Assembly (NCBI GenBank): GCA_948144175.1 | Contig: CANXME010002050.1 | Coordinates: 372,001 to 436,000, forward strand | Reading direction: 5' to 3' | Source of the DNA: Closterium sp. NIES-65 | Taxonomy: Eukaryota > Streptophyta > Zygnematophyceae > Desmidiales > Closteriaceae | Length of the DNA stretch: 64,000 nucleotides | Part shown: one piece after another, positions 404-29,075 of the stretch | Layout: each line of letters opens with the position of its first letter | Position numbering within the stretch: the stretch's first letter is position 1 | Position numbers and translations under genes: made by a program | Notes under the pieces: generated by a model | What the model was told of the DNA's origin: nothing | Database searches by the model: none | Seen by the model: the letters and a program-made list of their open reading frames with translations, nothing else

Positions 404-3400
404 CTAGGCAGCTGCGGTCTTGACGCGTTTAAAGAGCAGCTTCGCCTGACACAGCTTGCCTGCAGGGCCTGGGTGGACATGGAGAAACAAACGGGGTTGG
501 TTTGACAGGACGAGAAACATGGGGAGCGGGGTATGTGGGGAGGGACACGCGGGGAGGGACACGCGGGAGGGACATGCGGGGAGGGACATGCGGGGAGGGA
601 CATGCGGGGAGGGACACGTGGGAAGGGGCACACGGGGAGGGGCATGTCAGGTGTGGCATGTGGTGGTTCATGGCAGAGGGGCCTGAGACCCTGTAACGCC
701 CTGTGGAAGCCCATGCATACAGGTGCCAGCATCTTATAGACACACATATGGGGAGAATATGCAAACACGCCAAGATGGGCAAAATAAGGACACCTTTTGT
801 AGTCCCTCTGGGGCTTGGATTGCATATACCTGGGGGTCTCTTTAGGAGAGTGAGCTTGGCTTGGGGCAATGGCATGGTGCGGTTGTTGCTCCTGCTGGCA
901 GGAGCCTGTGACTGTGGTGCCACGTCAGCTGAGGTAGTGCTCCGCTGGTGCTCTGCCACATCAGCAGCTGCAATGCTCTGCGGCTGCTGGTGATGCCGTT
1001 GCTGGTGCAGGTGTGCCACGTCAGCAGCATGCATGCACTGCTCCTGTGTGGTGCACGGGACATGAAAATGGAGTGCAGTAGTTGCACCTGTTCTAAGACA
1101 TATGTTTTGCATACGTAGGACATGAGACTATATGCAGCAACCACATGCAGAAATCCATGAAGATGTTCTAAATGCACCACACAATGGATGATGACCATGC
1201 AAGCCCCGTTGATGCGACACATGTATTGTGCCACATGGCGCACACTGTACCATGTCCAACGCCCCATCGCTCCCCATGCCCCACACCCCATGCTGCACAA
1301 CACCATGCACCAGAAAGTCATATGCTGCCCGACCAAGCGTGTCACATAATAAAAAGCCGCGACATGCGCCATGTGTGCCATACACCACCCCGCACCACGT
1401 CGTTATGCAACCCATGACATGCTCTGCAACTCACCAACTGGGCGTGCCTGACAATCAGTGATCCATCCTTTTCAGCTGCCCCACGGGCACCATCAGCTTT
1501 TGCTGCATCGTGTGAAGCTCTGAGTGGTGATTCACAGAGTGAGCTACTTAAAGCTTGGTGCATATCATTGAGCTGTTGCTGGTTACACTGCTGCGGTTGC
1601 TGCTGCTGATGTTGCTGCTGTTGATGCTGTTGCTGCTGTTGCTGCTGGACTGGTGGGTGCTGGCGTGGCAGAGAGTGCTCCTGTGCCTTGCTGGGTGTGG
1701 GGCAGCTGTGGGACGACCCAAACAGGTCTGCACAGTGGGCTTCCATGCTTGCCACCACCTGGTGACGCAGGGAGGTAGCACATTGTGGGGTGGTGTGAAC
1801 ACAAAATGGATGTTCCGTGTGTGCCATGCTGCACAAGGTGGCATGAACACATGATGGCTATGCCGCGATGCATTGTAGAGGTCCCCTCATTAGTGTAGCA
1901 CAGGACGGATTAGCCACACTGCATTATAATGGCGCCTCAGAAGTGTGTCACAGGGGGGACGCTGTGCTGGCATCAGGGACAGATGCGGCCTGCAGGGGCT
2001 TGTGAGTGCAATCTGAACAAAGCTCAGAGGACAGAGACGAATGCACAAGCAAGTGCAGAAGAGGTGTTAAGCACATTAGGTACAGGTGCATGAGAGATGC
2101 ATGTACCTGCTGAAACTCATCCTTGCCAACCCGTGTGGCTTCAAGCAGCCTGTCCGCGTCCATCTTCAGCTGCATGTGATGTTCACATGCATGCATGTAT
2201 GCACATGATATTCCAATGCATGCATGAATGCGTGTGTGACAGACATGCACATATAAGGGACATGCCCATGCGCATGCCACACACATCTCATGCACATGCC
2301 AATGCAAATGCAGACACCCAAGCACGCGTGACCATGCGTGCACATGGGCAAATGTACGCACAGCAATGGTTAGGCACAGACACACACATGCAAAATTAAA
2401 GCCCCATGCTTTGCATCTGCATAACCTCACGCAGGTCGGTGCCTCCCTTTCATCTTGCTCTCGTGATAATGAATGGTTCTTGATTGAGACGACTCATAAC
2501 TCTCTGCTCTCACCACTGGAGACACCCTCAACAACTCAACCCACCACACCTTCTCACACCAACTCCCACCCCCTCCCCCCCCCCTCCCCCCCCATTCTCA
2601 TTCCCGTCCCCCTCCATCCCTTCCCCCTCTGGCCACCATACCTAAGCCCTGGCGCCACCATAAACACATAAACACACTGCAACTAGGGACTCACACCAGG
2701 TACATCCCATGCATTCGCACAACAGAACATGGGAAACTCATGGCGCACTTAATTTCATGTGGTGTGGCAGTGAGTGAGCTCAGCGCAGCTGCCATGAGGT
2801 GACCTTTGATGCAATTCAAAAGTATGAGAGTTTACTCAAAAAGTGTGAGTGAGTTGACTCGGAAGTTGTGAGTTGACTCGAACGTAACCCACGGCGCACT
2901 TGGTGCATGTGGCTGTGAGCACGAGCGCTGCTGCCATGGGGTGAATTTTAAGGCGACTCAATTGTTGTGAGTGGACTGAACAGAAGCCCACAGCGTACTT
3001 GGTTGCGTGTGGCAGTGAGCATGAGCGCCGCTGCCATGTATGCCGGCCGGGAGAAGTCAGTGCCTCCCCTGCGTGCCTCTGGGAGGGCAGCAGTGAAGCG
3101 CGCGGTGAAGCTGAGAGGCGGTAGGCAGACCACCACGGAGGTGAGGTGAGGGGACAGGATGGAGGGTGCAGGAGGGAGAGGGCAGGGAGAAGGGGTAAGG
3201 GAAGGGGGCAGGGTGGAAGACGAGGCTCGGAGAGGAAACGAAGCAACAGTGGAAAACTGTGGCACCGCTTCTTCTCATCACGCAGCACTGACAGGCCCAC
3301 TCCCTCTCCATAAATCCATCCACTTTCCCCCTTCCCTTTCCTCACATGTGCAGGTTGCGTTGGGTGGACTCCAGCACTCGCATGCACCCAAACTGAAGGG

Positions 3401-5402
3401 CCAACTGGGGTAGGCTCAACTGCGACCTGCACGCGCACAGCGCACAGAATAGTACAGCTGGCATGTGGTGTGGCGAGAGGCATGCGGTGAAATGCACATG
3501 ACAAATGGCCGGTGGGACATGCGTAGAGAAGGGCATAGATACAATAGATACACAAGCGTGAAGCCTGTAACCTGGCCCAACCCGAGCTTGGCCCAGCGGC
3601 GTGACGAAACGTGGTGGCTGTGGCCTTGGAGTCACGCTGCTGTGGCTTGTGCTGGGTCTTACTTAGGAGGCAGGCAAGGGTCACTTGGGCTCACGCCGCT
3701 TAACAGACTGCGGTGCGCTGTGCCTCAAAAGTATATCCTAACAACGGCGCTTACTTGACACTGAGAGCGGTTCTGAATGGCCGCGCGCGCCCGGGCCCAT
3801 GTTGTTGGCATACGCCAGGGTGGTGGCCTTGGGCAGTGGCTGTGTTGAGTTGCAGCTTTGCAATTGATGCCAGCAACTGCGCATACCTGACGCCTAGAGC
3901 GTTCTGAATGGCTGCTCGCGCCTGGGCGTATGCAGGTGGAGACATGCAGCTCAGCTTGGCTGCCTTGCGCGCCTCCACTGCTGTGCTGCCCATCCTGCCA
4001 TGGAACCGTAAGGCCATTTTGCCGTTGACACGAGTGAGTGGGGCAGGAAAGCGTGGGAAGGGAGGGGAGGAGAGGGGGGAAGGAGAGGACAAGCCTTTTA
4101 GCATAAAGGCTTTCCGAGCATCCCATGCAGTGCCAGCCAGCCTGCGAGTGCATCAGTGCATCGTGGGGTGGTTGTGGTACCTCCCAGCCCAGCCTTCCAA
4201 TGTCATTGCAGGGCATGGCACCAGCGTGAGTAGTACCCGTGCAGATGGTGGAGGGGTGGGTGTGTCACGAGCGCGTAGGCGGTGATTATAATATTGAGGG
4301 TGGTTGGAAGTGCGTTCGCGCTTCGGCGGGTGGTGAGGAGAGGGGGAACGGGGGGAACGAGAGGGAGGGAAGGGAAGAAGGGGTGGATGGGAGGGAGTGG
4401 GAGATGGGAACCGGGGAGGGGGATGAGAAGGGGAGGCAGTGAGGGAGAGACGGAGGGAGGGAGGAGGGAAGAAGGGAGGGAGGGAGGGAGGGAGGGATTG
4501 AGAGAGGGAGGGAGGAATGGAGGGAAGAAGGGAGGGAGGGAAGAAGGGAGGGAAGAGGAGAGGGAGAGAGGGAGGGAGTCAGGGAGGGAAAGAGGGACGG
4601 ACGGACGGACGGACGGACGGAAGGACGGACGGACAGGCGGATTGACGGACGGAAAAGGGGAGGGAGGGAGAGAGGGAGGGAAAGATGGTTGTTCGAGGGG
4701 GTTGTGTTTCAGGGTAGGGGGAAGATTATAACGCGTACAGGTGGCAGGCGATGTCGAAGCAGATGACAGCCTTGGCTACCTCACCCTGCGCAGAGAATGG
4801 GGTGATAATGGCGGAAGGAAGAGATACGGAAAAGCTAGTTTAAAAAGGAGGCGTAGTAAGGACGAGGAATCAGGAAGGTTTGGCACGATATTTCTGTCAG
4901 CTACGAGAACAGTTGCTTAGTCGGATGGCACACGCATTCTCGCGACAATCTCAGTCGCAAGAGCCGCGACAGGACCGTGAGGGCTTCGGAATGTCGGGCT
5001 GAGCCGGACACTGAATGGAACGGTTGGATTGATGCGACAGCAAGCGATGACCAATCGCCATCTCCCGTAGCTGCCCAACGCCTGTTTACCGGCAGTCAAC
5101 TTCCAAGTGGTGTGTGGCTGGCGCTGGGAACTCCTCATTAGGAAACTCGGTTCTAATCAATTACAAGAAAAATCTGCATGGCGAGTCGGGCGTAATTTTC
5201 CTCCACATACCACGCCGAAAGTGCCCGGCTCAAATTTCAGGTTGCACATTCTTAGCAGCTCGTCGGCCCGCTTTACAGTCGGATGTTTCTTCTTGCTTCT
5301 ACGTCTATCTCTGGAAGCATCGAAAAGGAGAATATCACTCGAGTTGTCAGACGGCTCAACTGATTGCGACAGGAGTCTTGATTGGACTTCATTCATATCC
5401 AT
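404..5402 (-). CDS. ORC6: Origin recognition complex subunit 6 (ORC6), 9 exons
   Basis: ORC6 is the smallest subunit of the origin recognition complex, which licenses replication origins in the nucleus. Exons in transcript order: 5402-5211, 4785-4739, 3994-3887, 3426-3346, 3110-2999, 2169-2107, 1758-1435, 1043-830 and 468-404. All junctions are GT-AG and the phases agree, giving 402 codons including the stop. Family landmarks in order are RADELLRMCNLKFEPGTFGV at the end of exon 1, GEVAKAVICFDIA (exon 2), KLSCMSPPAYAQARAA (exon 3), LALQFGCMRVLE (exon 4), LPEARRGGTDFSRPAYMAAA (exon 5), LKMDADRLLEATRVGKDEF (exon 6) and VVASMEAHCADLFG at the start of exon 7. These match the order of the plant ORC6 cyclin-like folds. 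After that the protein departs from the family. Exon 7 encodes a polyglutamine tract and exon 8 a Q/A/H-rich stretch, so the protein is about 100 residues longer than usual plant ORC6 (about 280 aa). A second in-frame acceptor for the last exon lies at 459. The polyQ tail and last two exons are the least certain part. Confidence 0.86.
538..645. repeat. 14-bp minisatellite in ORC6 intron 8
   Basis: About eight tandem units of the form GGGGAGGGACAYGC lie between exons 8 and 9. The sense (minus) strand is C-rich, like the other long introns here. Confidence 0.8.
1585..1660 (-). repeat. CAG-type tract encoding polyglutamine in ORC6 exon 7
   Basis: Imperfect CAG/CAA repeats on the minus strand encode glutamine runs broken by histidines in the ORC6 frame (QQQQQQQHQQQQHQQQQ). 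The surrounding exon has a clear acceptor and a GTGAGT donor, so the tract looks translated. Confidence 0.75.
2090..2360. repeat. CATGCA-rich alternating tract
   Basis: The region around exon 6 of ORC6 and the adjoining part of intron 5 is dense in CATGCA, ACATGC and GTGCATG words. It does not form a strict tandem array. Confidence 0.5.
2740..2948 (-). repeat. Two decayed copies of the ORC6 exon 5 3' end
   Basis: Exon 5 ends with codons for MAAALMLTATRNQ followed by GTACGC. Downstream in intron 5 the same stretch recurs at about 2885-2945 (reading MAAALVLTATCT, then AAGTGCGCC) and at about 2745-2810 (MAAALSSLTATPH-like, then AAGTGCGCC). Each copy spans the exon end and the donor region. Confidence 0.75.
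3735..3832 (-). repeat. Copy of the ORC6 exon 3 3' end in intron 3
   Basis: Exon 3 ends with sequence for PAYAQARAAIQNALGVR and donor GTATGC. About 60 bp further into intron 3 is a second version containing GCGGCCATTCAGAAC and CAGTGTCAAGTAAGC, again with a donor-like end. This is a duplication across the exon-intron junction. Confidence 0.75.
4330..4690. repeat. GGGA/GGAC simple-repeat block in ORC6 intron 2
   Basis: The block is long runs of GGGA and AGGG units followed by a (GGAC)n stretch at about 4595-4650. On the ORC6 sense strand this is a CCCT-rich polypyrimidine tract inside intron 2 (3995-4738). Confidence 0.85.
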
Positions 5403-6124
5403 TGCTATAGACGAACTAGCGCTGAACGATTCTCAGGATCAATGATAAATTGGCACAGCTGCACAAGACTGTTCTGATGGAAATGACAGCAGGACTTGTC
5501 TCCGACCAAGTTGTGACTGATGATCATTCGAGAGACGAAATTTGAAACTGCTTCACCAAAATATATATCACTGTCTTCGATTGAGAGCTCCTCTGTACCA
5601 GAAAGAGACGAAAACATGATCCTTCATTGATATCAATGACATGAAGGATTTCTGGTGCTTAGAAGACATGAAAAGCCCTCTCCATCTGTGAAAAAATACA
5701 TTCAAGATTCTTGGAGCTATGTCATCATAATATGACTGGTTTTTTGTCATATAGATTTAATTCCTGTACCTCTTTTTGTTCTGAAAACTTGTACCCAGAT
5801 CTTTCTTCATATTTTGAGTAGAACTGTGGTACTTTATCGTACCGGTGATTTGATCGTGTCCATTTAGGAAACATTTTGCTTGCGTTGTTAGATCACAACA
5901 CCTCAATCATGAGCCGATTATAGATGTTGCTGCAATAGCGACTCGTGTATCGTAACGAATTGCGCCAATATCGACTATCGCCGACCATATTGCCACTGCT
6001 TCTGCCTTTCACCCGCACTTGCCAACTCATATTTAGCCTTACCTAGCTTCATCAGCAGCCGTCAGACCAAGGACTGCCTGTCAGCTACCTCAGTCTGTGA
6101 GCTGTTTCCGACAGCTTTCACCAA
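5403..6124. promoter_or_regulatory. Shared divergent upstream region of ORC6 and invertase
   Basis: About 720 bp separate the ORC6 start codon (minus) from the invertase start codon (plus), with no other gene between. The region must hold both promoters and 5' UTRs. It is AT-rich compared with the flanking introns. I could not assign a TATA box or start site with confidence. Confidence 0.6.
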
Positions 6125-8361
6125 ATGGCAAGCCTCCCAGAGCTTCGCCATCCACTACTTCACTCAGAGAGAAAGGAACGCCTACATAAATGCTGCACAT
6201 TTTTCCTGCTTTTTATCGCATTTTCCGCAGGCTGCGTAGGTGGATTTATCAACTTCTATCATTCAGCAAGAGATGAATCACCTAAGCACAGAATACCTAA
6301 CAGACGGACAGCGTTCCATTTTCAACCGGAAGGGAACTGGATGAATGGTCAGTATACATCAGTGGGTAAAATCAGTGACTATGTAGTAAACATCTCATTG
6401 TGCCCTTGATGACTGAACCCCCGTTTTCCCTTTGCAGATCCGAATGGTGAGCGCTGCTTTTTTGGGACCTATGTCGGCGGGTCAGTTTCTTACTATTATG
6501 TCTTCATTCAGGGCCAATGTACTACAAGGGATACTATCATTTATTCTACCAGTACAATCCTTTTGGAGCAGTTTGGGGTAACATAAGCTGGGGTCATGCA
6601 GTTTCAAGCAACTTGATCCAGGTATGAAGCAGGTTCAACATGTTTTATACCTGCTATGTCGTCCTTGACTGACATGCTCCTGCTGGCAGTGGACCCACTT
6701 GCCAGTGGCCATCAGTCCTGACAAGTGGTATGACGCAATGGGTGCATGGTCGGGTTCCGCTGTGGTTCTTAGTGACGGAACTCCTGCTATCCTGTACACC
6801 GGAAGCAGCAAAGATAATGTGCAGCTACAAAACCTGGCTTTTCCAGAAAACGCATCTGATCCTTACCTCACAACATGGGTGAAAAGCCCTTACAATCCCA
6901 TAGCCGTTCCACCTCCTGGAGTTGGCAAATTTGATTTCAGAGACCCATCCGCATGGAAGGGAAGTGACGGAGTGTGGCGAATGATTGTTGGGTCAAGGCA
7001 AAATGGGACCGATTGCGTGTTTATGTACAAGAGCAAGGACTTCACTAACTGGTCGAAAATTCCTCAAACGGTTAGGACGGCGCCAGGACGAGCTGGAATG
7101 TGGGAGGTAAGTGTTTTGGGTCCCAGTATGATGTGCGGGTTTCTTGTTTATCTATTAATTTAACGAGCTCCTTCTCATGCAGTGTCCTGATTTATATCCT
7201 GTTTCTACGAATGGCAATGCTGGACTGGATACGTGCTCTGAAGATGACGTTTGCCGTCACGTTCTAAAGGCATCCTTTGATGACGATTTTCTTGATTACT
7301 ATGCCATTGGAACCTACAGCCAAGCAAATGAAACTTGGGTTCCAGTGGATCCGCAAATCGATGTCCAAAATGGGCTGCGATACGACTATGGGAAGTTCTA
7401 TGCATCAAAGACCTTTTATGACCCGTCCAGGCACCGCCGTATCTTATGGGGATGGGTGAATGAGTCCGATTCACAAAATGACGACATATCTAAAGGTTGG
7501 GCTTCAGTCCAAGCTATTCCACGTGTTGTCAGTTTGGACAGGTCAACAGGAAAGCACTTGTTGATGGAGCCTGTAGCGGAGTTAAAGCTTTTGCGAGGAA
7601 GACACTTACATGATGCTGGCCTCACACTAAAGGAGGGGATGAACAAGCTTGTCAACGGCCTTACAAGCATGCAGGTAATGGAACGCTTTGAAGGCTTTCC
7701 ACGGAGTGTTCGTTCGATTATTAACAATTCTTGACTGCAGGTGGATATGGAGATAGTATTTGCCATTCCCAACATCACGACGGAGTACCGCCCTCTTGAC
7801 AGTGACTGTGGTTGGGATGAAAATTCTGTTTCAAAAGTTGCTGGCCGATTTGGGGTCCATGTTCTTGCCTCAGCAAATTTGGAAGAAAGAACATCTATCT
7901 ATTTCGAGCTCGCCAGTGGTGGACCTTTGGGTCAATGGCAAGTTCGATTCTGCAGTGACCAAAGAAGGTGAGAAAGATTATTTCTGAACCTGCCTTGCTT
8001 AGCCTGACTCGTTATGCGTACAGGTCTTCATTGTCAGAAACTGCGGAGAAGAGTATATATGGGAGTCAGCTTCTGCTGCAGGAATCTGAGGATAGGCTCA
8101 TGCTTAGAGTTTTGGTAAGTAAGCTAGCGGAGATACTTTCTTCAACCAGCATCTTCATTTTCTCATATATTTACTATATTTTTTTCACTTCAGGTGGACA
8201 ACTCAATTGTGGAGTCCTTTGCCCAAGGAGGAGAGTCTGTCATAACAGCAAGAGCATACCCAACAACCGGGAAATCAAACAGTATATATTTATTCAACTC
8301 TGGACCAGCTATAAAAGTGATTTCGTTCGATGCTTGGGAGATGATGACTACCAACAATTAA
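6125..8361 (+). CDS. Acid beta-fructofuranosidase (invertase, GH32), membrane-anchored
   Basis: This enzyme hydrolyses sucrose to glucose and fructose. Exons: 6125-6347, 6438-6446, 6512-6621, 6690-7106, 7183-7674, 7741-7967, 8024-8114 and 8194-8361. All are GT-AG and phases agree, giving 579 codons including the stop. Exon 2 is only 9 nt (ATCCGAATG) and completes NDPNG, the mini-exon known from plant invertases. Catalytic motifs are visible. The nucleophile Asp in WMNDPNG is at about residue 75, RDP in FDFRDP at about 199, and the acid/base Glu in MWECPD at about 253. The C-terminal beta-sandwich region includes [13 protein letters not shown]. The N-terminus has PLL followed by basic residues and one hydrophobic segment (about residues 24-45), the layout of vacuolar invertases with a type II anchor. 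WECPD carries Pro, which is usual in cell-wall enzymes (Val in most vacuolar ones), so location is uncertain. Introns are short and free of the repeats seen in neighbouring genes. Confidence 0.96.
6438..6446 (+). other. 9-nt mini-exon of the invertase gene
   Basis: It is flanked by TTTGCAG and GTGAGC. The nine bases join exon 1 (ending AATG) to exon 3 (starting GGCC) to give N-D-P-N-G-P. Without it the catalytic Asp motif is lost. Confidence 0.92.
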
Positions 8362-8624
8362 ATGGACACATAGAAAACCTGATGGATGGCCGTTGTTCAG
8401 TAGTAATCCCAGACAGTGGGGGTCATGTTTGGCAGTCTGAAATGTTTTCATTGAATCACACGAGTCAATGTTTCAGCAGGCACATCCATGCCAGAGCAGA
8501 GATGCCTCTCAGGATTGGGATTGTATGAACGTGTTATTATTACGGTATTTCAGAGTCCGATCCGATCTGATCGATTTAAGTGAGATTAAGGCAGACAAAT
8601 CGTATGGTATAAAGGGTACCGGTA
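8362..8624. other. Convergent intergenic space between invertase and OPT
   Basis: The two genes end facing each other with about 263 bp between stop codons. The 3' UTRs probably meet or overlap. No other feature is apparent. Confidence 0.6.
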
Positions 8625-11273
8625 TCAGCTACCAACATAGTTTGGACATGCAGAATTTACTGATGTAACTGCTGTGGGATCAGTTGCGCACATAGCCAGC
8701 GGACAGTTATCAGAAGATGTTACACCAGCACCCCACCAGGAGAGGGAAACTGAAGGGGTTTCAACCTGAACCCCAAAAAATATGAAAAGTGCCATGAACA
8801 TGACTCCAGAATCAAGTGCTGCTGACAGCACGTAGTTGTAGCGACGCCACCAATCCTGGAAAATTACGAAAAGGAGGAGCCGCAGACGCAAGGGTCAGAT
8901 ACAGGCAAAACGCATACTGTATTCCTCTCCCTGTGAATGATGGTGAATGAATCAAGCTGTCATGAGAACATACTTGGAATGTTATTGCTGGAAAGCAGAC
9001 CAATCAGAGGCGTGCTACCATACCGCACCTTTCGGTAAGTGAAGATGAGCTTGTTGAAGATAAAGCCCATGGTGAGCCAGCCCAGGTAGTTGATGGGTGA
9101 AGCCGGCGGCATCATGCCCACGCCTGTGAGCATCACTGGGATATGCACCTTGGTCAACCACTGCAAGCGACATGGGAGTGAGACAGCCATCAAAATGAAG
9201 GAGGTGATTAGTATGGTATGTAGCCACGGCCCAACACATGTTCTGATTTTCAAAACTTAAAAAACGGCCACAGAGCCACTGTCAATATGTCACGGTGAAA
9301 TATCCGCAACTGCCACCTGTGTCGTCAACTCACGCAACCTCTGTCCCCAACATCCCACCACCTGCCGATGCCAAGCCATCATCAAGCTCCAGCTCTAAAT
9401 AAGATCTGTGACAGGGTTCCCCACAGAACCACCAACCGATTTTGCCAACCCACTGGCTGCCTCTGCCAGCCCACCAACTTTTTTGAACAACTCACCATTT
9501 GTCTGCGTTGACTCACCCTCCATCTGCATGGAGTCAACATGTGCCTGCACCATCCCACCATCTTTTGCATCATCTCACTCACCATCTGTCTGCATGATCT
9601 CACAACGTGTCTCTACCAACTTACCACCTGGCGCGGCCACATCTTGTGCGCGGCCCAGAAGGGGATGGGAGCGAGCGCCCCTCCAAGGAACCACCAGTTG
9701 AGGTTGTTGTAGAAAGCTGTGGGGCCAAACATGCGCTCGGGGCCGATCAGCCCCCAGATGATTGAAGCAGAGTAAAACACGTTGGCTGTCGGGCACGTCC
9801 ATGGGGAATTCTCCGGGAAGTTCTCGTCATTGATCTGATTTAGGGGAGGTGAGTGGGGATGGGAGCACGGGGACGCGGGAGGAGGAGCGGAAAGGGGGAG
9901 TGGAGGGAAAGGAAGGAATTCCATGCAGATGGAAATTGGTCAGTGAGACATGGGTACTAAGGCGCGACAAGGAACACAACATGCGTTCGAGGCTGATGTG
10001 TCCCCAGATAAAGGACGTTGAGTAGAAGATTGATTGGAAGAGAGGGTGGTAGAGAGTGCACGGGATGTGGCATGGCAAGCAAAGGTGGAGAAAGGCAAGG
10101 AAGTTCCTCTTTTTCCACCTTGCAACGAGCCCATTCTTGATCATGTTGCCGAGCCACTGTATCATACCCTGCAATTCGTCCACAGCTTCTGAGGCGCCTC
10201 AAAACAAGACAGGACTGTTTTGAAGCGCCTGATACGTTGTTGCCTTCCCATCCCACCTTGCAGATGAGCCCATTCTCCACGGTGTCATGGAGAAGTCAGA
10301 ACTTATGAGATGTCTATTGACGCGTCTCAAAAGGTGTCGTAGAGACACCAGGACTTATGAGTTGACTAAAGGGGGACAAAGAGAGGGAGAAGGCAAGAAA
10401 GTTCGTTCTTCCTTCCCACCTTGCACATGAGCCCATTCCTTCCCATCCCAATCCTTCCCACCTTGCACATGAGCCCATTCCTTCCCATCCCAATCCTTCC
10501 CACCTTGCACATGAGCCCATTCCTTCCCATCCCAATCCTTCCCACCTTGCACATGAGCCCATTCCTTCCCATCCCAATCCCTCCCACCTTCCACATGAGC
10601 CCATTCCTTCCCATCCCAATCCTTCCCACCTTCCACATGAACCCATTCCTTCCCATCCCAATCCTTCCCACCTTGCACATGAGCCCATTCCTTCCCATCC
10701 CAATCCTTCCCACCTTGCACATGAGCCCATTCCTTCCCATCCCAATCCCTCCCACCTTGCACATGAGCCCATTCTCCACGGTGTCATAAAGCCACATGGG
10801 CATTTATAGCCACTTAAGAAGGACCATGGCACGGGGCCGCGCAGGGCAGTGACGTCTAACGCACCTTAACAGCTCCTTCCCACCTTGCAGATGAGCCCAT
10901 TCTCCACGGTGTCGTAAAGCCACCAGGACGTGCCGAGATTGACAAGGCCTGCCAAGATAGTGGCGAACACCTGCACCACAAACATGGCTTGTGGTGGGAT
11001 CTGTGTGCATGCATGGATATGCACATGCACATGAATGCACATGCACATGCACATGCACATACAGAAAGTGGGCAGAGTGGGAAAGAATTTGTTTCGAAGA
11101 TACCAGCAGCTATACACACACACGAAAACCCTTCCGAAGGGCAGATGCAGTGTGTGAGAACGAGGGCAGATGAAGAGTGTGAATGAAAACGGAGCAACTG
11201 TGTGTGGCGAAGTGGGAGAATCTGCAAACATTCAACAAATTTTTTAGATGTAAAAATAGAAACCGAAAGAACG

Positions 11274-11316
<43 letters not shown>

Positions 11317-20583: not shown

Positions 20584-21466
20584 ACGTCAAACCGGCGAAA
20601 ACAGCGAGATAAGGACTTAGTGTAACATTGGGTTACGAGGGAGCTCTGTAGTTGACTTGGCCAGTCTAGACATGGATGTGGAAGTGGGGTATTACGCGGC
20701 GACTGGCACAAAGTGGCTGGCTAGTCTCGTCGGATCTGGTTTCATTAGGCGCTACGACACTTCGTAAGGATCACGTTCCTTGCACGCTGGGTTAAAGCTG
20801 GTTCTGTAAGTTGCATAGAGAATACGGACAGTTACAGATCGGTGGTGAATATATATTGGGTGCTCGAACCCTAATCTGGGTACAGTAGTCACTCAGGTTT
20901 CTAGTCGCGACTGTCACTGGGAATAGCCGCCTCCTAGTAGGCACCTTTGTCGCTTCTGAGTCCCTATTTGTTTTACCGAGATTCGAAACACCTACATGAG
21001 CAAAATCGTCATGTGCATTACAGTCGATATGAAAAATAAATAAAAAGGGGTAATCTACATAGAAATTTAAACAAATAGATTATTCTGGTTCGCATTTAGT
21101 AGTACATAATGTGTTCCTTTTTTTCATGCTCTGGAGATAATCATATACTGTATGCTTATTTGGTAGTGAAATGAATTAGAATTCAAGACCTTCGCTCCTT
21201 CATGCATCTGCGTCCTCACCTCTGAGGCTTCTATGGAAGGGCCTTGCATATCTCAGCAGCAAAGCAGAACCTATCGATATGATTCAAAACACTAAACTTG
21301 GGAGGAGGACCCTGCGTTTCCTCAACCAGTCCTATCCCATCTCTTCTAAGTCATGCTAATTGGCTTTTTTTTTTTTTACATTCCAAGTGTGCATGATGAT
21401 TTGAATGCCCCTTACGCGTCACCAACCACATAATTCCTTGATTATTCTTCATGTGCACTCAGCCTG
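20584..21466. other. Intergenic region: OPT upstream and RRP36 3' flank
   Basis: It contains the OPT promoter (next to 20584) and the RRP36 terminator region (next to 21466). The 20990-21400 part is AT-rich with a T-run near 21366. I see no gene here. Confidence 0.55.
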
Positions 21467-24400
21467 CTAATGCTCTCGGCGGAACGGCACCTTGGTGTGC
21501 TCCCTCGCTGCATTTCTCTTCCTCTTCTTCGCCATAAATGAGTCGAGCTTGCCACCCGCCTGCAACACACACACACACACACAAGAAAAAGGCGAGGGAC
21601 GAAGATATTAAAGGTGGTTGGAAACAACTAGTTTGGCTATGGAGAGACATAAGACCGTGGAAGCGACGCTCATTTAATGATCCCAGAGCAGAAAGTAATG
21701 CCAATGGAAAAAAACAAACAAAAACAAAAACAGCAGCATTGTTGATCGTTTGTGAGAAGGTTCCTTTGAGTTGTTCAGTACAACCCCAACCCCATGCTTT
21801 GTGTGCTGTACTGAGCATGTGATGGATGTCAACGGGCGCACCTTGAGCTCTTGGTACTTCTCGTACAGCTCTTCACGCCGGCGAGACGCTGCAGAGAAAC
21901 ATTACACCACATGACCACACAGCACCCGCACCGCACCACACCGCACGCAATGCCGGATGCCAGAGCAAGTCGAAAGGGGATGCCAGCGCAAGTCGAAAGG
22001 GGATGTGAGGCAAGCAAAGACAAGAGGGGTGTTGGGGTCGGGGGTAGAGGAGGGCGTGTTGTTAGAGGTAGGGCGCAGGGTGGGTGGGCTGGAGCAGGCA
22101 GGGGAGGTGGGATGGCTATCAAGGGAGGAGGGTCGTGTGGCGTGAGCTGTGGGGGGTGTGAGCTAATGAGAGGGTCGTCGAGGGAGGTGGAATTTAGTTC
22201 TTCGCACGCCACTCTGCTCACTGGAAGCTTAGGGTCAGCAATGCATGTCCGATGGGAGCACAGTGTTGAATTGCTGGGATGATTGATGTGATGCATGGGT
22301 ACGGGCAAGCACATGGCGCCCTCCCCCCGGCCACATTCTCTCGCCCACAAACACACGAGTACACGAGAAAACGAGCACAGAAAAACACAAGCACACAAAC
22401 AGACCAGCACACAAACAGACCAGCACACAAACAGACCAGCACACATGCACACAAACAGACCAGCACACATGCACACACACAGACCAGCACACAAACAGAC
22501 CAGCACACAAGCACACAAACAGACCAGCACACAAGCACATAAACAGACCAGCACACAAACAGACCAGCACACAAACACACAAACAGACCAGCACACAAGC
22601 ACACAAACAGACCAGCACACAAGCACACAAACAGACCAGCACACATGCACACAAACAGACCAGCACACAAGCACACAAACAGACCAGCACACAAGCACAC
22701 AAACAGACCAGCACACATGCACACAAACAGACCAGCACACTAACAGACCAGCACACAAACAGACCAGCACACAAGCACACAAACAGACCAGCACACAAAC
22801 AGACCAGCTCACATGCACAAAAACAGACCAGCACACAAGCACACAAACAGACCAGCACACAAACAGACCAGCACACAAGCACACCAGCACACAAGCACAC
22901 CAAGCACACCAGCACACAAGCACACCAGCACACAAGCACACCAGCACACAAGCACACCAGCACACAAGCACACCAGCACACAAGCACACCAGCACATCCA
23001 TTTGGTCTGGTAGAATGGTTTCATGGCCCCCTTCACCGCCTCTCTCTCCTGCTGCTACAATGACTTTTAAGTTGACTCAAAAGTCATCTCTTTCGCACAC
23101 CAGCACACAATCACACAAACAGACCAGCACACAAACACGCCAGCACGTACACTTGGTCTGGTAGAACGGTTTCTTGCCCGCCTTCACAGCCTCCCTCTCC
23201 TGCCGCTTCAGCTCCATCTCCCTCCCCACCTTCTTCTGCCTCTGGCTCTCACTCTTCAATGACTGCTCCTGTGGAACAGAACACCAGGGTGTGGGTGAGG
23301 GGTAGAGAGAGGCATGAGGGGTGTGAGGGCAAGGAGAGGGCATGAGATGTGTGCGAGGGGCAGAGAGAGGGGGTCCGGGCGGGGTCTGAAGGGCATAGAG
23401 AGGATATGAGGGGTAAGAGAGAGAAAAATAGGGGCGTGGACAACAAGAAAAATCTGGTGCAGCAGAGATGGGTGTGCATTTGTTGAAAGGCAGGGCAATC
23501 ATAGCCGAAAGCAGACCAAGAGAGGCAGCGTGAAAGGGAGGGCAAGGGAGTGAACAAGAGCGAACCAAGCGAAGGGGGCTACAGACTCGAAATGAGAGAA
23601 ACTAGAGACAGCGAGAAAGAACGGAGCAGGGAGACTAGAGAGGCGAATGGTTTCGACCACAGGACGGATGGACGAGCAATTTTTCTAGATGAATTCCGCG
23701 CATTGGAACTCTGAGAGAAGTAGAAACGCAGTCAGGATCTGACACAGCATGCGTGGAGTGGACGGCGCAAGGCACACAATCTAAGTGAGGCACACAATCT
23801 AAGTGAGGCACACAATCTAAGTGAGGCACACTAGGGATGAGCAAAGGGCGAACACGAACATGTTCGTCTTCGCCCCTTGTCGAACACCCTCTTTTGCCGA
23901 ACCGAACAGTGTTCGGTTCGGCGAACAGTTTAGGAAAAAACAGGTGTTCGCTGTTCGCCTGTGGAGGCGTGTTCGGGCGAACCTCGAACACTGTTCGTGT
24001 TCGTCGCGGGCAAATTTCAGCAGCGGCCCGAACACGAACGTGTTCGGGCGAACATCGAACACTGTTCGGCGAACGATTTGAGCTAAAAAACAAAACCTGT
24101 TCGGTTCGCCTCGAACACGTTCGAGGCGAACCGAACAGGTGTTCGCCACCTTGCTCATCCCTAGGCACACAATCTAAGTGAGGCACACAATCTAAGTGAG
24201 GCACACAATCTAAGTGAGGCACACAATCTAAGTGAGCCGGCTTTTGAGGCGCCTCAAAACAGTATGCACCGACGAGACGAGCACAGTAGCTTACAATTTG
24301 TGCGAGTCGCCGCTTGATCTTCTTCCGCTCCTCCTCGTCCTTTGCCCTCTTCAGCTGCCTCTGCACCTCCTGGTGATGGTGTAGCAGCAAGGAGGGGTAG

Positions 24401-27400
24401 GTGCAGGCGAGGTGGGGTGGGTGCAGGCGAGGTGGGGTGGGTGCAGGCGAGGTGGGGTGGGTGCAGGCGAGGTGGGGTGGGTGCAGGCGAGGTGGGGTGG
24501 GTGCAGGCGAGGTGGGGTGGGTGCAGGCGAGGTGGGGTGGGTGCAGGCGAGGTGGGGTGGGTGCAGGCGAGGTGGGGTAGGTGCAGGCGAGGTGGGGTGG
24601 GTGCAGGCGAGGGGGCGATGTGAGCAGGTTGGGGAGCATTGCGAGTGGCAGAAATTCAGTGGGGATTTAGAAAAAGGAAAGACCATGCTGCAGGTGTTGC
24701 AGCAAGGAGGGGATTGAGTAAGGGCGACAGGGAGGAGCGGGAGCAAGAGGGGGGTACTTCATAATCCAGGGGGTGCTCCAACCAACAAGTGAAGTGACAT
24801 ACTCTCACAGGCACAGCACAACAGCAGCATTGCTCTTATGCACAGTAAGCGGTTAAGAACGGTTCCCTTTCTCCTTTCCCCTCTAATGTACATCATCGTA
24901 ACCTTAACTTGCCTCTTTCTCCTTGGGAAGTGTTTCTGCAAAGAGGAACTTGTAAGCAGATTTGAACCTGGTAATAAAGAGGATAGAACGGAAACAGTAC
25001 GAAATTATAGCAGCTATTACAACAACGAAACGCCGAGAAAAAGAGCGAGAAAAAGGAGAGTCATCAATATTTGAGATGGGCAATGAGGAACTAAGGAAGG
25101 CAGTTGCGTTTATTATTGAGTCGAGTCACAAGGTGACATGAGGGAGGTTGGGAACTGTGCATGAACTATCTCCCCCTATCTCCACAAAAGGTCCCCTTTC
25201 TCTAGGCATGGGCATCTGGCCCGACCCGGCCCGACCCGTCCCGTTTAGGGCGACCCGTTAGCTTAACGGGTCGGGTCGGGTCGGGTTAGCGGGTCGGGTT
25301 TGACTCTGTTTTGGTGACCCGACCCGCCCCGTTGGAACGGGTATTTGTGACCCGTAACCGGGTCGGTTACACCACGGGTCGGGTCAGGTCGGATCAAAAT
25401 ATGCTACATAGCAGCAGGGTATGGTGGCGCCTTGGCGCTGCTCCAGGTGGCGTTCGCGATGCTGGAGGTGGGGACCGCGATTCTGGCTGGTGGCGTTCGC
25501 ACTACTGCAAGGCCGCTATCGCGCTATTGCGGGGATGCGATCCCGCTAATGCGTGGCCGCGATCGCGCTGCCCTAATGTGGTGCCGCGATCGCGCATATG
25601 CGGGGCCGCGATCGCGCTATTGCGGGGACACGATCCCGCCAATGCGTGGCCGCGAGTGCGCTGCTGCGCCCCTGGTCGTGCGACACTGGGAAAGGCAGGA
25701 GCGCCTATGCCTATAATGAATATAAATATTAAAATAGTGCTAACATTGAAGTCAAGACTGTAAGAGTTTTGGTAGGTGCAGTGGAGATTTACTAACTTGA
25801 TTAGAGACTAGATCTGAATGTCGAGGGAAACAAAACATCAAAACCAACTGATGTTCTCCCCCTCTCCAAATTGTACCCTAAGCAGAGAACGGGTCGGGTA
25901 ACCCTGTCATTTGACTGGGTATGCGACCCGGACGGGACGGGTCAACCCGACCCGGCGGGTCACTGATACCCGTCTATAAATCACATTGACGGGTCACGGG
26001 TCGACCCGACCCGCCCGGGTAAACCCGACCCGACCCGGACGGGTCGACATTCTCAGCATTCCTGACCCGACCCGCCATTTTAGGCGGGTTGGGTCGGGTA
26101 ACCCGACCCGTCCAGGCCAAATGCCCATCCCTACCTTTCTCCTTTGCCCTCGTCCCCCACCCCACCCGATCCTTCTTGGGCCCCCACTCCCACTCCCACT
26201 CCCACTCCCACTCCCACTCCCACTCCCACTCCCACTCCCACTCCCACTCCCACTCCCACTGTGATGAGTCGACTCAAAAATCGTCCCCCACCCGATCCTT
26301 CTTGGGGCCCCACTCCCACTCTCTCCCTCTCTCTCAGTGCCCACCTGCCTTCGTCGTACTCCCCCCTGTCCCTTCCCTTCCCCCCCCACTGCCCACCTGC
26401 CTTCGTCGTACTCCCCACAGAGCGACTCAAAGCGCGGGTCTCGAACAACCTGCGGGGAAGGGGCGGATTGGGGTGGGAGGGAAGACTTTTGAGTCGTCTT
26501 TTGAGTCGCCTAAAAAGTCGTCCCACAGAGCGACTCAAAGCACGGATCTTGAACAACCTGCAGGTGACGGGGCTGATGGGGGGGAGGGGGGGGAGGGAAG
26601 ACGTGGGAAATGGGGGGAGATTGAGGCAGATTGTCGAAAAATGAGAGTGACTGGGCGAGAATGGAAAGGGGGAGAGGAAAAGAATGGGGGCGAATAAAAG
26701 AGAGATTGATGCGTTGCGTTTAGGGGAGGTTGGCGGGAGATTGGTGGGGAGGGGAATGGCCTGCATTTTAAAATCTCAGCGCAGGCACGGGTCCCAAACA
26801 ACCTGCAAGCCTAGATTTGGATCTGGGGGGATGCGCGGGAATTGGGGGAGGTGGGGGGAATGAAGGAGATGGGGGGGGACTGGGGGAGATAGAGGAGGAT
26901 GGGGGTTTGGATTGGGGGAGATGGGGAGAAATGGGGAGACATGAAGACCTCACAGCATAAACACACGCACACCAGCATTACTGCAGCTATAGATCTCACC
27001 TTCCTAGGGGCGTCCACCACTTGTCTCAGCCGCGGCACGGGCTTCTTAGCTGGAAGCTCCATGGGTCGGTTCTTGTTGGCCCGGCGCCGCACCGCCTCTG
27101 CCAGCACTTTCATGCGCTTCAGCCCCACCACCCCCGCTGCTCCCCCACTGCTGCCCTCTGCTCCTGCCTCCCCTCCTGCTCCTCCCCCTCTCACTCCCTT
27201 CCCTCTATCCCCTCCTTTCCCCCTCCCAGCTTCGCCACAATCCCCATCGTCACCATCACTAGAGACAGAATCAGCACCAGCACCAATGCCGGCCTGACTT
27301 CTCCCCCCGACCCCACCAAGGTCCCCGGTCCCTCTCAGAGGGGCAGCAGCCCACCCGCGGCTTCTCATTTGCTGGATCTCCTCAAAGGGAACGTCTGCTA

Positions 27401-28103
27401 GCTGCTGCTGCAGGCGCGACTGAGGTGGGCAAGGGGGAACAGGAGGGGGATTAAAACCGGAGTCCCAAACAGCCCAAAACTGCCTCAACCTTCCTAACTT
27501 TGGTTGGGAATAACCTTGTAGAAATTTGTCAACTTCGCGAATTGTGGGAACGGTTTTCGCTACCCAAAAATTACTGTACTGGCAACGACGACAGCCGTAA
27601 CGATTTCGCCCAAAAAAAATCCGCTGAACCGAAATGCGACGCGAAGGGGTTCACGAGTTGCATTCGAGATCTGGTAACTCTCGCGACCACTATATCACTC
27701 AATGACCCTTGGGTTCCTATCTCGCGAGCCAGTTGCCGCTCTTTCCCCAACCAATCTTCCTAACTTCGAAACCTGTGAGACTCCGATTTTAAGGAAAAAG
27801 GAGAGGGGAGAGGCGAAGAGGAGAAAGGAAAGTGAGAGGCGTGAAAAACATTCTAACCCATCCCCGGCTTCTTGCTCAATGAATATTCTCAGAAGGCACA
27901 TCCGCTAGTTGCTGCTGCAGGGGTGGTGATAGGGGAGTAAGGGGAATGGGAAAGGGAGAGAAAAGAAAAGGGTGTAAGGAAAAGGGAGAGGGAAGAGAGA
28001 GGAGGGAAAGAGGAGCAAGAAAAGTGAGAGGCGTGAAGGACAATGCGGCCCGCTCGTGGCTTCTCTTCTCATGAGCTGACTCTCCTCAGAGGTTGCGTGT
28101 GCT

Positions 28104-28136
<33 letters not shown>

Positions 28137-29075
28137 GCCTGATAGGGGAGCAAGAACAGGGGAGAGAGTAGATGGGAGAGGGGAGAGAGAAGGTAGAGGG
28201 GCGAGGGAATAGGGCAGAGGGGAGGGGGGAGAGGGGAGAGGGGAGAGGGGAGATGGGAGAGGGGAGAGGGGAGAGGGGAGAGGGGAGATGGGAGAGGGGA
28301 GAGGGGAGAGGGGAGAGGGGACTCGGGCTCAGCTTACCAGCTCATCCTCTGCGTCGCTCTGCTCCTCCGAATCTTCTCCCTCCTCCTCACTTCCACTTTC
28401 CACCTCCCCCTCTTCCCCCGCCAGCCCCTGTTCCTCCTCCTCCTCCTCTTCCTCCTCCTCCTCCTCCTCCTCCTCCTCCTCCTCCTCCTCCTCCTCCTCC
28501 TCTTCCTCCTCCTCCTCCACCTCTCCCTCCTCCTCCTCTTCCTCCTCCTCCTCTTCGTTCTTTGCAAATCTACCAAAACCGGAACTATCCGACTCTCTCC
28601 CCTGAACCCCCCCAAAACCCTTTCCCTTCTCGAACCCTCCTTCCCCGTTCAAACCCCTTCCGCCCTTCTCCCCACCCATGCTCCTCCCAGGCCCGAAAGC
28701 CTCCGCTCCGCCAGCACTTAAGTGTCCCGCGATATTCCCCTGAAACTTCCTCTCCCTGCCCCTCTCGTCTCCACCCGCGCTCCCCCTCCCTCTCCCTCTA
28801 TCTTTCCCCCGCCCATTCCCTCCCCCGCGCATCGTTCCGCCCTCTATTCTTTTGCCTACTGAACCCCCATGGGACTGCGCGTCGCCTCCCCTCGCCTCCT
28901 CCCTTCCTCTGACTTCTCCCCCGCTCGTTGACAGTCCTAGAGACCCTGGCAAGTCGTCAACCAATACCTCGAAGCCACGTGTCCGGTCGCCACCTTTTGC
29001 CGCCCCGCTAGCAGAAAATGCCAGCCGCCCTTTAGGCCCTCCGCTGTGTGATTTCTTCCCTCGCCCCGGACCCAT
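21467..29075 (-). CDS. RRP36: rRNA biogenesis protein RRP36, 8 exons
   Basis: RRP36 is a nucleolar component of early 90S pre-ribosomes needed for cleavages leading to 18S rRNA. Exons in transcript order: 29075-28338, 27419-27000, 26449-26397, 24967-24913, 24369-24295, 23268-23151, 21888-21842 and 21559-21467. Phases agree throughout, giving 532 aa plus stop. Family landmarks are SRLQQQLADVPFEEIQQMRS at the start of exon 2, RANKNRPMELPAKKPVPRLR at its end, VVRDPRFESLCGEYDE (exon 3), FKSAYKFLFAETLPKEKE (exon 4), KRAKDEEERKKIKRRL (exon 5), AGKKPFYQTK (exon 6), RRREELYEKYQELK (exon 7) and GGKLDSFMAKKRKRNAAREH (exon 8). All introns are GT-AG except intron 4, which starts GCAAGT (a GC-AG intron). 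Exon 1 encodes a long Gly/Arg-rich then poly-Glu extension, and exon 2 has a Gly-rich insert between its two conserved blocks, so the protein is about twice the usual size. Confidence 0.94.
22385..23135 (-). repeat. 700-bp satellite grown from the RRP36 exon 6 donor region
   Basis: Units of GTGTGCTGGTCTGTTTGTGT on the sense strand repeat for about 700 bp in intron 6. The first bases after the exon 6 donor (GTACGTGCTGGCGTGTTTGT) are the same motif. A copy of the exon end itself (GCCATGAAACCATTCTACC, reading KPFYQTK) lies at about 22993-23033 inside the array, without a GTACGT donor. Confidence 0.85.
23775..24240. repeat. 18-bp array split by a transposable element
   Basis: Units of AGGCACACAATCTAAGTG occur on both sides (about 23775-23831 and 24164-24237) of the hAT-type element listed next. 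The array clearly predates the insertion. Confidence 0.9.
23832..24163. mobile_element. hAT-type non-autonomous element in RRP36 intron 5
   Basis: This is a 332-bp element with terminal inverted repeats TAGGGATGAGCAA / TTGCTCATCCCTA. It is flanked by GGCACAC on both sides (7 bp, in a repeat context that hides the exact duplication). The inside is full of short GTTCG/CGAAC palindromes and could fold back on itself. It has no coding capacity. Confidence 0.85.
24393..24615. repeat. 20-bp minisatellite in RRP36 intron 4
   Basis: About 11 units of GTGCAGGCGAGGTGGGGTGG lie just upstream (transcript direction) of the exon 5 acceptor. Confidence 0.92.
25203..26133. mobile_element. hAT-type non-autonomous element, 931 bp, in RRP36 intron 3
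   Basis: Its termini are TAGGCATGGGCATCTGGCC and, inverted, TAGGGATGGGCATTTGGCC. An exact 8-bp target duplication CCTTTCTC lies at 25195-25202 and 26134-26141, which is diagnostic for the hAT superfamily. The ends are dense in CGACCC/GGGTCG repeats, and a GATCGCG-rich stretch lies in the middle (25500-25660). No transposase frame is present. Confidence 0.93.
26180..26262. repeat. (CCACTC)n microsatellite in RRP36 intron 3
   Basis: About 13 hexamer units lie between the hAT-type element and exon 3. Confidence 0.92.
26330..26365 (-). repeat. Copy of the RRP36 exon 3 3' end
   Basis: GAGTACGACGAAGGCAG followed by GTGGGCA, identical to the true exon 3 end and donor at 26397, is repeated about 57 bp further into intron 3. 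Confidence 0.85.
26510..26815 (-). repeat. Two copies of the RRP36 exon 3 5' end
   Basis: Exon 3 starts after GCAG with GTTGTTCGAGACCCGCG. Intron 2 has TGCAG plus GTTGTTCAAGATCCGTG with the following FESLCG codons at about 26522-26566, and TGCAG plus GTTGTTTGGGACCCGTG at about 26785-26812. Both keep acceptor-like sequence. Confidence 0.87.
27840..28142 (-). repeat. Two copies of the RRP36 exon 2 5' end
   Basis: Exon 2 starts SRLQQQLADVPFEEIQQMRSRG. Intron 1 contains LQQQLADVPSENIH-stop-ARSRGW at about 27845-27925. A second copy at about 28035-28140 is expanded by CAG repeats and continues CTGAGGAGAGTCAGCTCATGA. Confidence 0.83.
28165..28322. repeat. GGGGAGA minisatellite next to the RRP36 exon 1 donor
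   Basis: Tandem GGGGAGAGGGGAGAT units. On the sense strand this is a pure CT tract at the beginning of intron 1. Confidence 0.9.
28430..28560 (-). repeat. Poly-glutamate coding tract in RRP36 exon 1
   Basis: GAG/GAA codons encode more than 40 nearly uninterrupted glutamates in frame with the RRP36 protein, ending shortly before the conserved part begins in exon 2. Confidence 0.88.

Follow-up and report, generated by a model that had tools for sequence, protein, structure and literature searches.

Where does the sequence of a long intron come from? The usual credit goes to transposons or drift, and a 64,000-bp stretch of DNA from the desmid green alga Closterium sp. NIES-65 (hereafter the window) raises the question of whether an intron can also be lengthened with copies of the exon edges that flank it. 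Our analysis covered one genome, through this window and two sampled gene families. The genes at issue, all on the minus strand and all with hand-built exon models, are an OPT oligopeptide transporter gene (8657-20574; Pfam PF03169, with Closterium orthologues), which has 12 exons and 11 introns of 173-1737 bp; RRP36 (21467-29075; 8 exons, Pfam match); and ORC6 (404-5402; 8 exons, the last donor and acceptor being tentative; Pfam match). We rejected a supposed additional OPT exon near 19560-19590, since including it breaks the frame and the neighbouring exons join without it. An acid invertase gene on the plus strand (6125-8361), with 8 exons and introns of 56-90 bp, provides an internal control.

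The original prediction held that introns of the three minus-strand genes are built from copies of their own exon edges, and such copies are present. Comparison of a 40-bp exon-edge probe with the adjacent intron (z>10 against dinucleotide shuffles) identified a strong copy at 13 of the 50 internal junctions. OPT (7/22) and RRP36 (4/14) are affected as predicted; ORC6 is affected at two junctions only (2/14). The same probe and threshold found an exon-edge copy at none of the 14 invertase junctions, again as anticipated. A 60-bp probe yielded 30 copies at 14 window junctions, at identities of 0.79-1.00. The matches are direct and local: exon probes matched adjacent introns of the window genes directly in 31 of 622 tests and in inverted orientation in 0 of 622, and the figures for non-adjacent introns of the same gene were 0/2843 and 1/2843, respectively. 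When OPT exon 9 was searched at the DNA level against the whole genome, its 8 matches fell only at the two OPT loci. The copies thus do not look like a dispersed repeat family or introner, in which one element recurs in unrelated introns, as judged from the other introns of the same gene and the exon 9 search. Copying in inverted or dispersed form, as by templated insertion or retrocopying, was also rejected, there being no inverted copies beside the exon in either the window or the sampled genes. Acceptor-side copies lie upstream of the exon and donor-side copies downstream; the intron on the wrong side of the exon gave a match in 2 of 44 window tests (z>10), and both matches involve 53-bp exons (OPT exon 5 and RRP36 exon 3) copied nearly whole. 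This sidedness needs no special cause, because a tandem duplication that crosses a junction can leave its spare copy only in the intron.

Several junctions carry more than one copy. At the acceptor edge of OPT exon 7 (source 13065-13135), the 60-bp probe lists four copies and a further listing gives five, spread over 13201-13988 (13201-13271, 13337-13407, 13521-13595, 13676-13736 and 13912-13988), the nearest unit measuring 136 bp. The donor edge of the same exon (source 12719-12762) has two copies within 12514-12663 (12623-12663 and 12514-12557), as does that of exon 6 (source 14532-14590), within 14295-14453 (14395-14453 and 14295-14337). Elsewhere in OPT, the 60-bp probe revealed a copy of the exon 2 donor edge at 19152-19187 (source 19269-19304; period 117 bp), two copies on the acceptor side of exon 5 within 16722-16955 (16722-16765 and 16918-16955; source exon 16454-16506) and a copy of the exon 6 start at 15676-15710 that stops 24 bp before the junction. 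Copies of the exon 8 start occupy 11890-12036, one at the edge (12003-12036) and one from deeper inside the exon (11890-11921). Copies of the exon 9 donor edge extend over 10257-10795 (10756-10795, a 42-bp array at 10410-10774, and 10257-10286), the exon 1 donor (TTCAG|GTGGGC) is included in a 16-bp-unit array at 19908-20004, and a weak copy (74%) of the exon 10 interior lies at 9978-10027. In ORC6, the exon 3 donor edge is copied at 3756-3796 (period 132 bp) and the exon 5 donor edge twice within 2762-2938 (2900-2938 and 2762-2796; 60-bp probe). In RRP36, two copies on the acceptor side of exon 2, within 27857-28115 (27857-27921 and 28065-28115), fall 5-8 bp short of the junction; exon 3 has an acceptor-edge copy at 26522-26557 (period 108 bp) and a donor-edge copy at 26345-26364 (period 52 bp); and a donor-edge unit of exon 6 spans 22944-23059 (exon part 23002-23059; period 151 bp). 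The latter adjoins a 16/24/40-bp array at 22346-22996. Short-unit arrays (<40 bp) form a second repeat population within the introns.

Exon-edge families account for 17% of the intron bases of the window genes and all repeats for 29%, so although the copies are real, to say that the introns are built from them is too strong for the part that can still be recognised. The copies drift free of coding constraint: in the window, codon positions 1, 2 and 3 differ at 35/406, 37/406 and 94/407 sites. Where two copies could be compared, the nearer was the more similar in 17 cases and the farther in 6. The intron parts of the units have diverged about twice as far as drift would predict from the exon parts (identity 0.675 versus ~0.83), which counts against duplication followed by drift. 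Might selection retain the copies as spare splice sites, as the original prediction suggested, or as decoys? Most copies do keep their GT or AG, and the database model of the near-identical OPT gene in NIES-64 uses a copy of the exon 1 donor, which lengthens the protein by 18 in-frame residues. Retention of the dinucleotides (20/24 and 39/46) is nevertheless close to what identity alone predicts (0.84 and ~0.79), the level of difference is the same at codon positions 1 and 2, and copy-to-junction distances are not reliably divisible by three. We therefore regard selection of this kind as very improbable.

Are junctions preferred, or do duplications arise everywhere, with exonic ones purged and the slower-changing exon making edge copies easier to spot? 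Geometry alone would yield the observed layout, and in the window genes copying of exon sequence drops to zero more than 100 bp inside the exon. Junction edges lay in repeats at 14 of 50 junctions, versus 4.8 ± 1.9 for random points when only intron-only families are counted; with every repeat counted, this is not above all intron points (10.4 ± 2.6, P 0.115). However, of 12 long-unit families grouped by hand in the window, 10 include exonic sequence (just 8 bases in one case), and implanted random duplications, with the detection advantage included, predict a junction share of 0.24 (P 2.4e-5 for 10/12 and 2.6e-4 for 9/12). A laxer listing adds five intron-only pairs with periods of 40-200 bp (87, 127, 93, 78 and 71 bp) and weakens the result to P 0.002 for 10/17 or 0.009 for 9/17. 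The last three of these pairs sit within transposon-like elements. Low complexity at intron starts does not account for which junctions bear copies (P 0.76). An early null based on the coverage of random 40-bp intron probes had hinted at no junction preference and was set aside after the implants and sampled genes; in our view, short-unit arrays confounded it, as did multi-copy junction families that were scored as intron. From the window alone, junction preference is less certain.

The sampled genes, from the proteasome and TCP1 families, were picked by Pfam family alone, and they extend the pattern beyond the window. Copies on the correct side were found at 25 of 46 exon-core ends in proteasome genes (15 loci, not all independent) and at 30 of 52 in TCP1 genes, versus 3/46 and 0/52 on the wrong side. 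Repeat coverage of exon edges was 61/132 and 101/161, compared with 61/699 and 61/608 for flanks 100-400 bp away that are not exon copies. This amounts to a 5-6-fold enrichment at edges in both families, and to 3.4-3.6-fold against flanks more than 400 bp away, so the check for an excess at exon edges, made here in two families rather than genome-wide, came out in favour of one. Coverage was also frequent for TCP1 probes lying over 60 bp inside the exon (60/125), so copying extends far into exons there. Given these excesses, duplication with no junction preference seems an improbable account.

The steps of the ladders are similar across genes. Among 74 steps in the sampled genes the median is 145 bp, with 49 falling within 120-179 bp, and steps within a family can be equal (for example 156/154, 145/145, 104/104 and 124/124/124); window steps are shorter (mean 116 bp). 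Periods lie between 96 and 174 bp in 25 of 28 measured units, whose copied exon edge is 34-107 bp long (up to 150 bp, the limit of another measurement). The middle of the unit lies close to the junction, at +2.6 (SD 20) and -10.6 (SD 20) bp in the two families, and units in the sampled genes consist of roughly 65-85 bp of exon and about 60-70 bp of intron. The intron part, with an implied length of 62-76 bp, would fit ancestral introns of about 70 bp, like the 56-90-bp introns of invertase, in which case any ~145-bp unit touching an intron would include an exon edge. The outer ends of the copies mark no old intron end, with AG within an 8-base window in 9/23 donor-side and GT in 2/23 acceptor-side copies, frequencies that we estimate to be about chance or below, and the idea that the unit is an entire ancestral short intron is unsupported by them. 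Moreover, units differ between gene copies in OPT intron 6, which was already 1.4 kb long and is 98.5% identical between them. We accordingly give ancestral shortness little chance of being the explanation.

The comparison just mentioned involves two near-identical OPT copies in the one genome, that of the window and C1965. At junctions these differ by exon-edge-bearing inserts of 120, 136 and 550 bp. Across all the gene copies compared, proteasome pairs included, units of 16, 42, 120, 136 and 140 bp differ. The C1965 copy has an extra 120-bp unit at the exon 6 donor, lacks one 136-bp unit at the exon 7 acceptor, is 210 bp (five units) longer in the exon 9 donor array and has one unit fewer in the exon 1 array. 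Among proteasome gene pairs, four of five matched in their units at the cores tested. Such presence and absence, together with the equal steps within families, would also be expected if the first duplication at a junction were random and the exon edge, kept intact by selection, thereby served its copies as a permanent recombination partner; unequal exchange would then re-amplify or delete junction units, and repeats confined to the intron would lose homology. Alone, this exchange gives no common ~145-bp step across unrelated genes and leaves over an excess of single-copy junction families, and we judge it unlikely as the full account.

As far as the sequence itself can tell, the duplications are direct, local, junction-spanning, decaying, variable in presence, enriched at exon edges and stereotyped in step, and the recurrent tandem duplication across junctions that was originally proposed very probably took place. 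Our best combined explanation, which we think somewhat probable, is that introns grow by recurrent junction-straddling duplication of ~145 bp, with the spare copies drifting in the intron. A unit straddling the junction would be duplicated in tandem, repeatedly, lengthening the intron each time; splicing would keep to the site beside the intact exon, so that the spare copy would end up inside the intron, drift there and be moved deeper by the next duplication, producing a ladder. Units may later be gained and lost when the exon edge recombines with its own copies. The length of the step and its centring on the junction would suit an event scaled to chromatin or to the lagging strand, such as faulty processing of Okazaki fragments on exon-phased nucleosomes, and we tentatively suspect a cause of this nucleosome or Okazaki size. 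A similarly tentative possibility is a genome-wide mutational process in Closterium that duplicates nucleosome-length DNA (~145 bp) centred on junctions, exon-phased chromatin setting both place and length.

Related phenomena are on record. Gao and Lynch reportedly treated internal gene duplication, and earlier work is said to describe human introns arising from tandem arrays. Like intronic minisatellites and VNTRs, the Closterium repeats are direct tandem units of short length that form ladders with a repeated step and vary in number between close gene copies; unlike them, they are tied to splice junctions, with the junction near the middle of the unit, and share a step of ~145 bp. They resemble tandem exon duplication in the two 53-bp exons copied nearly whole, but most units copy an exon edge, and the rarity of wrong-side matches in the window and both families is not that of whole exons duplicated with both splice sites. 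In the potato RdRp case (PMC4974935), a tandem-duplicated sequence crosses an intron-exon boundary and the duplication makes a new intron. Tandem duplication involves splice sites there too, whereas in Closterium existing introns hold serial copies, each unit makes up a fraction of its intron, and roughly half the exon ends sampled bear copies. In an intron made in that way, the first bases would repeat the start of the downstream exon and the last bases the end of the upstream exon; we found instead serial copies, periods of 96-174 bp in 25 of 28 measured units, and a median length of 1021 bp for the 12 copy-bearing window introns. Okazaki-flap internal tandem duplications (PMC12633238) offer a workable source of local direct duplications, although the portion of text consulted links them to no exons. 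We found no description of junction-centred ladders in the open-licence literature that we searched, which is weak evidence of novelty as most subscription journals fall outside that scope.

These ladders have several implications. A recognisable part of the window-gene introns, 17% of bases, comes from their own exon edges in steps of common length. Unit differences between near-identical gene copies make intron growth directly measurable, and each junction thereby gains an approximate clock. Gene predictors may mistake exon-edge copies for exons or for alternative sites, as database models of OPT seem to do, and the ladders could be used to ask whether gene structure is shaped by units of chromatin or replication. 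If our interpretation is correct, a so far unnamed ~145-bp process at exon-intron junctions would act as a conveyor belt of decaying exon-edge copies that lengthens introns.

Exon edges of OPT, RRP36 and ORC6 recur as diverged copies in the introns that adjoin them. With exon models built for OPT (12 exons), RRP36 (8) and ORC6 (8), 13 of 50 junctions gave a match at z>10 between a 40-base exon-edge probe and the intron next to it, in agreement with the dozen or more put forward in the original prediction. The intron on the exon's opposite side matched in only 2 of 44 such tests, both involving 53-bp exons, which bears out the proposed layout of acceptor copies upstream and donor copies downstream; the invertase gene, described as lacking copies, indeed had none at 14 junctions with the same probes and threshold. 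This acid invertase is of the plant type, with a 9-bp DPN exon, and its top identity among the matches listed is to Closterium sp. Yama58-4 (78% over 56%). Direct-orientation matches occurred in 31 of 622 exon-probe tests of adjacent introns and inverted matches in none of these 622, while other introns of the same gene gave 0 direct and 1 inverted match in 2843 tests; on this sequence evidence, the window copies are direct and local. Copies were found for 24% of exon probes within 20 bp of the edge, declining to 0 past 100 bp, as expected if they came from duplication across the junction.

Junction coverage in the window (14 of 50) was not significantly different from that of all intron points (10.4 ± 2.6, P = 0.115) and exceeded the value for intron-only families (4.8 ± 1.9; 0 of 3000 draws). 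Short-unit arrays (<40 bp) occupy parts of these introns. Of the 12 families grouped by hand from longer units (outside arrays, period 40-200), 10 include exonic bases, one of them just 8, and the remaining two are tied to exon-edge copies. An implant null, in which 3341 random duplications of the observed lengths and ages were placed into the same window introns and detected at rates of 0.87-0.90 (junction) and 0.72 (intron-only), predicts a junction share of 0.24 (P = 2.4e-5 for 10/12 and 2.6e-4 for 9/12). Under a laxer repeat listing, five further intron-only pairs of period 40-200 appear, three lying within transposon-like elements, and P becomes 2.2e-4 (10/14), 0.002 (10/17) or 0.009 (9/17). 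By eye, two elements in RRP36 introns (window 23840-24165 and 25205-26130) look like MITEs, with ends resembling inverted TAGGGATG / TAGGCATGGGCA-type termini, and one lies within an 18-bp array. The RRP36 exon 4 donor (window 24912) apparently opens a GC-AG intron (GAG|GCAAGT), and the reading frame is intact with that donor. By eye, window 31000-64000 appears to consist mainly of copia-like retrotransposons, and its large GC-rich tandem arrays to lie within or close to reading frames.

Because the window was chosen by a reader who had seen the pattern, the junction excess there could by itself be a selection effect, and further genes were therefore picked by Pfam family alone (PF00227, proteasome; PF00118, TCP1), for a scope of two conserved families plus three window genes in one genome. 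The end-probe test (40-bp end probes, 1.5-kb flanks, score 34) was fixed on the proteasome sample and left unchanged for TCP1; the window tests had other thresholds. From 44 PF00227 exon matches, 15 loci with 23 matches were fetched, near-identical copies being excluded. First-end copies lay upstream in 14/23 and last-end copies downstream in 11/23, with wrong-side copies in 2/23 and 1/23 and inverted copies in 0/92. The second core of locus L018 is itself a copy, and omitting it gives 13 and 11 of 22, with 1 and 0 of 22 on the wrong side. The loci are partly dependent, with 91-99% similarity between cores within the sets L017/L018/L026, L024/L025 and L013/L019; dropping L018, L019, L025 and L026 leaves 9/17 and 9/17 on the correct side and zero on the wrong side. 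PF00118 yielded 93 matches, in about 11 gene-copy groups by our own reading, from which five genes with 29 matches were fetched and three matches overlapping a better one were removed as copies. In the resulting 26, copies lay upstream in 15 and downstream in 15, with wrong-side copies in 0/52 and inverted copies in 0/104. MCM gave 86 matches, with neighbours overlapping by eye. Repeats of period 40-400 covered 61/132 exon-edge probes in the proteasome genes and 101/161 in TCP1, and 10/78 and 60/125 of the probes >60 bp inside the exon. For flank other than exon copies, classes that in both families still include unannotated exons, the respective values were 79/384 and 70/420 at 0-100 bp, 61/699 and 61/608 at 100-400 bp, and 0.10-0.14 and 179/1015 beyond 400 bp.

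With splice sites set by simple rules rather than RNA, 46 of 87 junctions in the two sampled families have a copy within 420 bp. Ladders, or series of such copies, comprise 74 steps with a median of 145 bp, 49 of them within 120-179 bp (uniform expectation 16%); omitting L014, L018 and L025 leaves 70 steps, again with median 145 and with 46 in that range. Steps inside one ladder are not independent, and one value per locus gives a median of 152 over 16 loci. Nearest-copy periods have medians of 146 and 155 in the two families, whose units <200 bp (38/46) average 66 and 83 bp of exon and 71 and 62 bp of intron, centred at +2.6 (SD 20) and -10.6 (SD 20) bp relative to the junction. When 28 units are pooled, window genes included, 25 have periods of 96-174 and the exon share is narrower than under uniform placement (KS P = 4e-6); ten window units have a mean period of 116. 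At one TCP1 exon match (1716749, locus L035 on contig C43), the acceptor side carries three consecutive 124-bp steps upstream, the nearest copy being 100% the same over 56 bp, and this ladder is probably a recent expansion.

Recurrent duplication straddling the junction, pushing the spare copy deeper into the intron like a conveyor belt, predicts that nearer copies are closer to the exon in sequence. At 26 junctions of window and sampled genes that have at least two copies, leaving out the array at exon 9, the nearer copy was more similar in 17 and the farther in 6, with 3 ties (Wilcoxon P = 0.004). Selection for spare splice sites, also suggested originally, found no such support, since splice dinucleotides are retained at about the level drift gives. 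Of 24 window copies whose distance to the junction is 3 bp or less, 20 retain them (expected retention 0.84 at a mean identity of 0.916, the array copies in this set being non-independent), as do 39 of the 46 nearest copies from sampled genes (identity 0.887, expected 0.79). Across 26 copies, exon 9 array copies omitted, differences from the exon affected 35/406, 37/406 and 94/407 sites at codon positions 1, 2 and 3, and two stops were present. The share of differences falling at third positions is 0.57, slightly more than the 0.5 expected under an unconstrained copy and silent exon drift (P = 0.05), and these sequences suggest copies with no sign of coding constraint beside an exon drifting silently.

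Tandem duplication across the junction is, at the sequence level, close to shown; for its placement and ~145 bp length, a nucleosomal reason may apply. The DNA of one nucleosome is 147 bp, near the ~145-bp step, and nucleosomes phased by exons could bring one unit end to the middle of the exon and the other one dyad into the intron. Excerpts of published work describe Okazaki ends enriched around nucleosomes in yeast (PMC8496332) and escaped flaps able to produce internal tandem duplications (PMC12633238). Exchange, with the intact exon edge as a lasting recombination partner for its own copies, may also be at work. Intron parts of units show an identity of 0.675 over 22 copies vs ~0.83 predicted from twice the exon-part drift, an excess divergence that sits neatly with neither the nucleosome/Okazaki reading nor exon-anchored exchange, and that may stem from slippage in low-complexity intron, exon conversion of copies, or copy choice by exon match.

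The OPT query is matched at 91-98%, over 50-100% of its length, by proteins from Closterium NIES-64, NIES-65, NIES-68 and Naga37s-1. One predicted Naga37s-1 protein has 29 copies of a 7-residue unit derived from the exon 7 edge, and a second has four copies of a longer unit (spacing 55, 71 and 55 residues). Database models show 18 added residues after OPT exon 1 in the near-identical NIES-64 gene and one Naga37s-1 gene, and 16 in another Naga37s-1 OPT model; those of NIES-64 map to the 16-bp donor array (window 20018, the exon 1 donor, and 19963), as if that model used a copied exon 1 donor.

In the 874 Mb assembly G000, the window OPT lies on contig C1752 and a second copy on C1965. Their exons are 98-100% identical and their introns 0.98-0.995, except 0.93-0.94 in introns 4 and 5; intron 3, with its 7-kb difference (609 bp in the window, 7621 bp in C1965; L009/L010), was left out of the intron comparison. 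Where sequence is extra relative to the other copy, gain and loss are alike possible: C1965 has an extra 120-bp unit at the exon 6 donor and 550 bp carrying exon 5 edge copies at the exon 5 acceptor, and the window an extra 136-bp unit at the exon 7 acceptor. The 42-bp array at exon 9 differs between the copies by 210 bp; further differences are one 16-bp unit at exon 1 and, away from junctions, 100 bp of a 20-bp array, stretches of 50, 91 and 701 bp, and four of 13-18 bp. Four of five proteasome pairs show no unit difference at the tested cores, two of these having indels elsewhere (120, 34 and 64 bp); in the remaining pair, L022/L028, one difference is a 140-bp ladder unit that includes a copy of an exon end, another is 52 bp holding a partial copy, and arrays have changed as well. 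Many sampled genes are present in G000 as 2-3 almost identical copies on separate contigs, and such copies are a handy resource for scoring recent indels.
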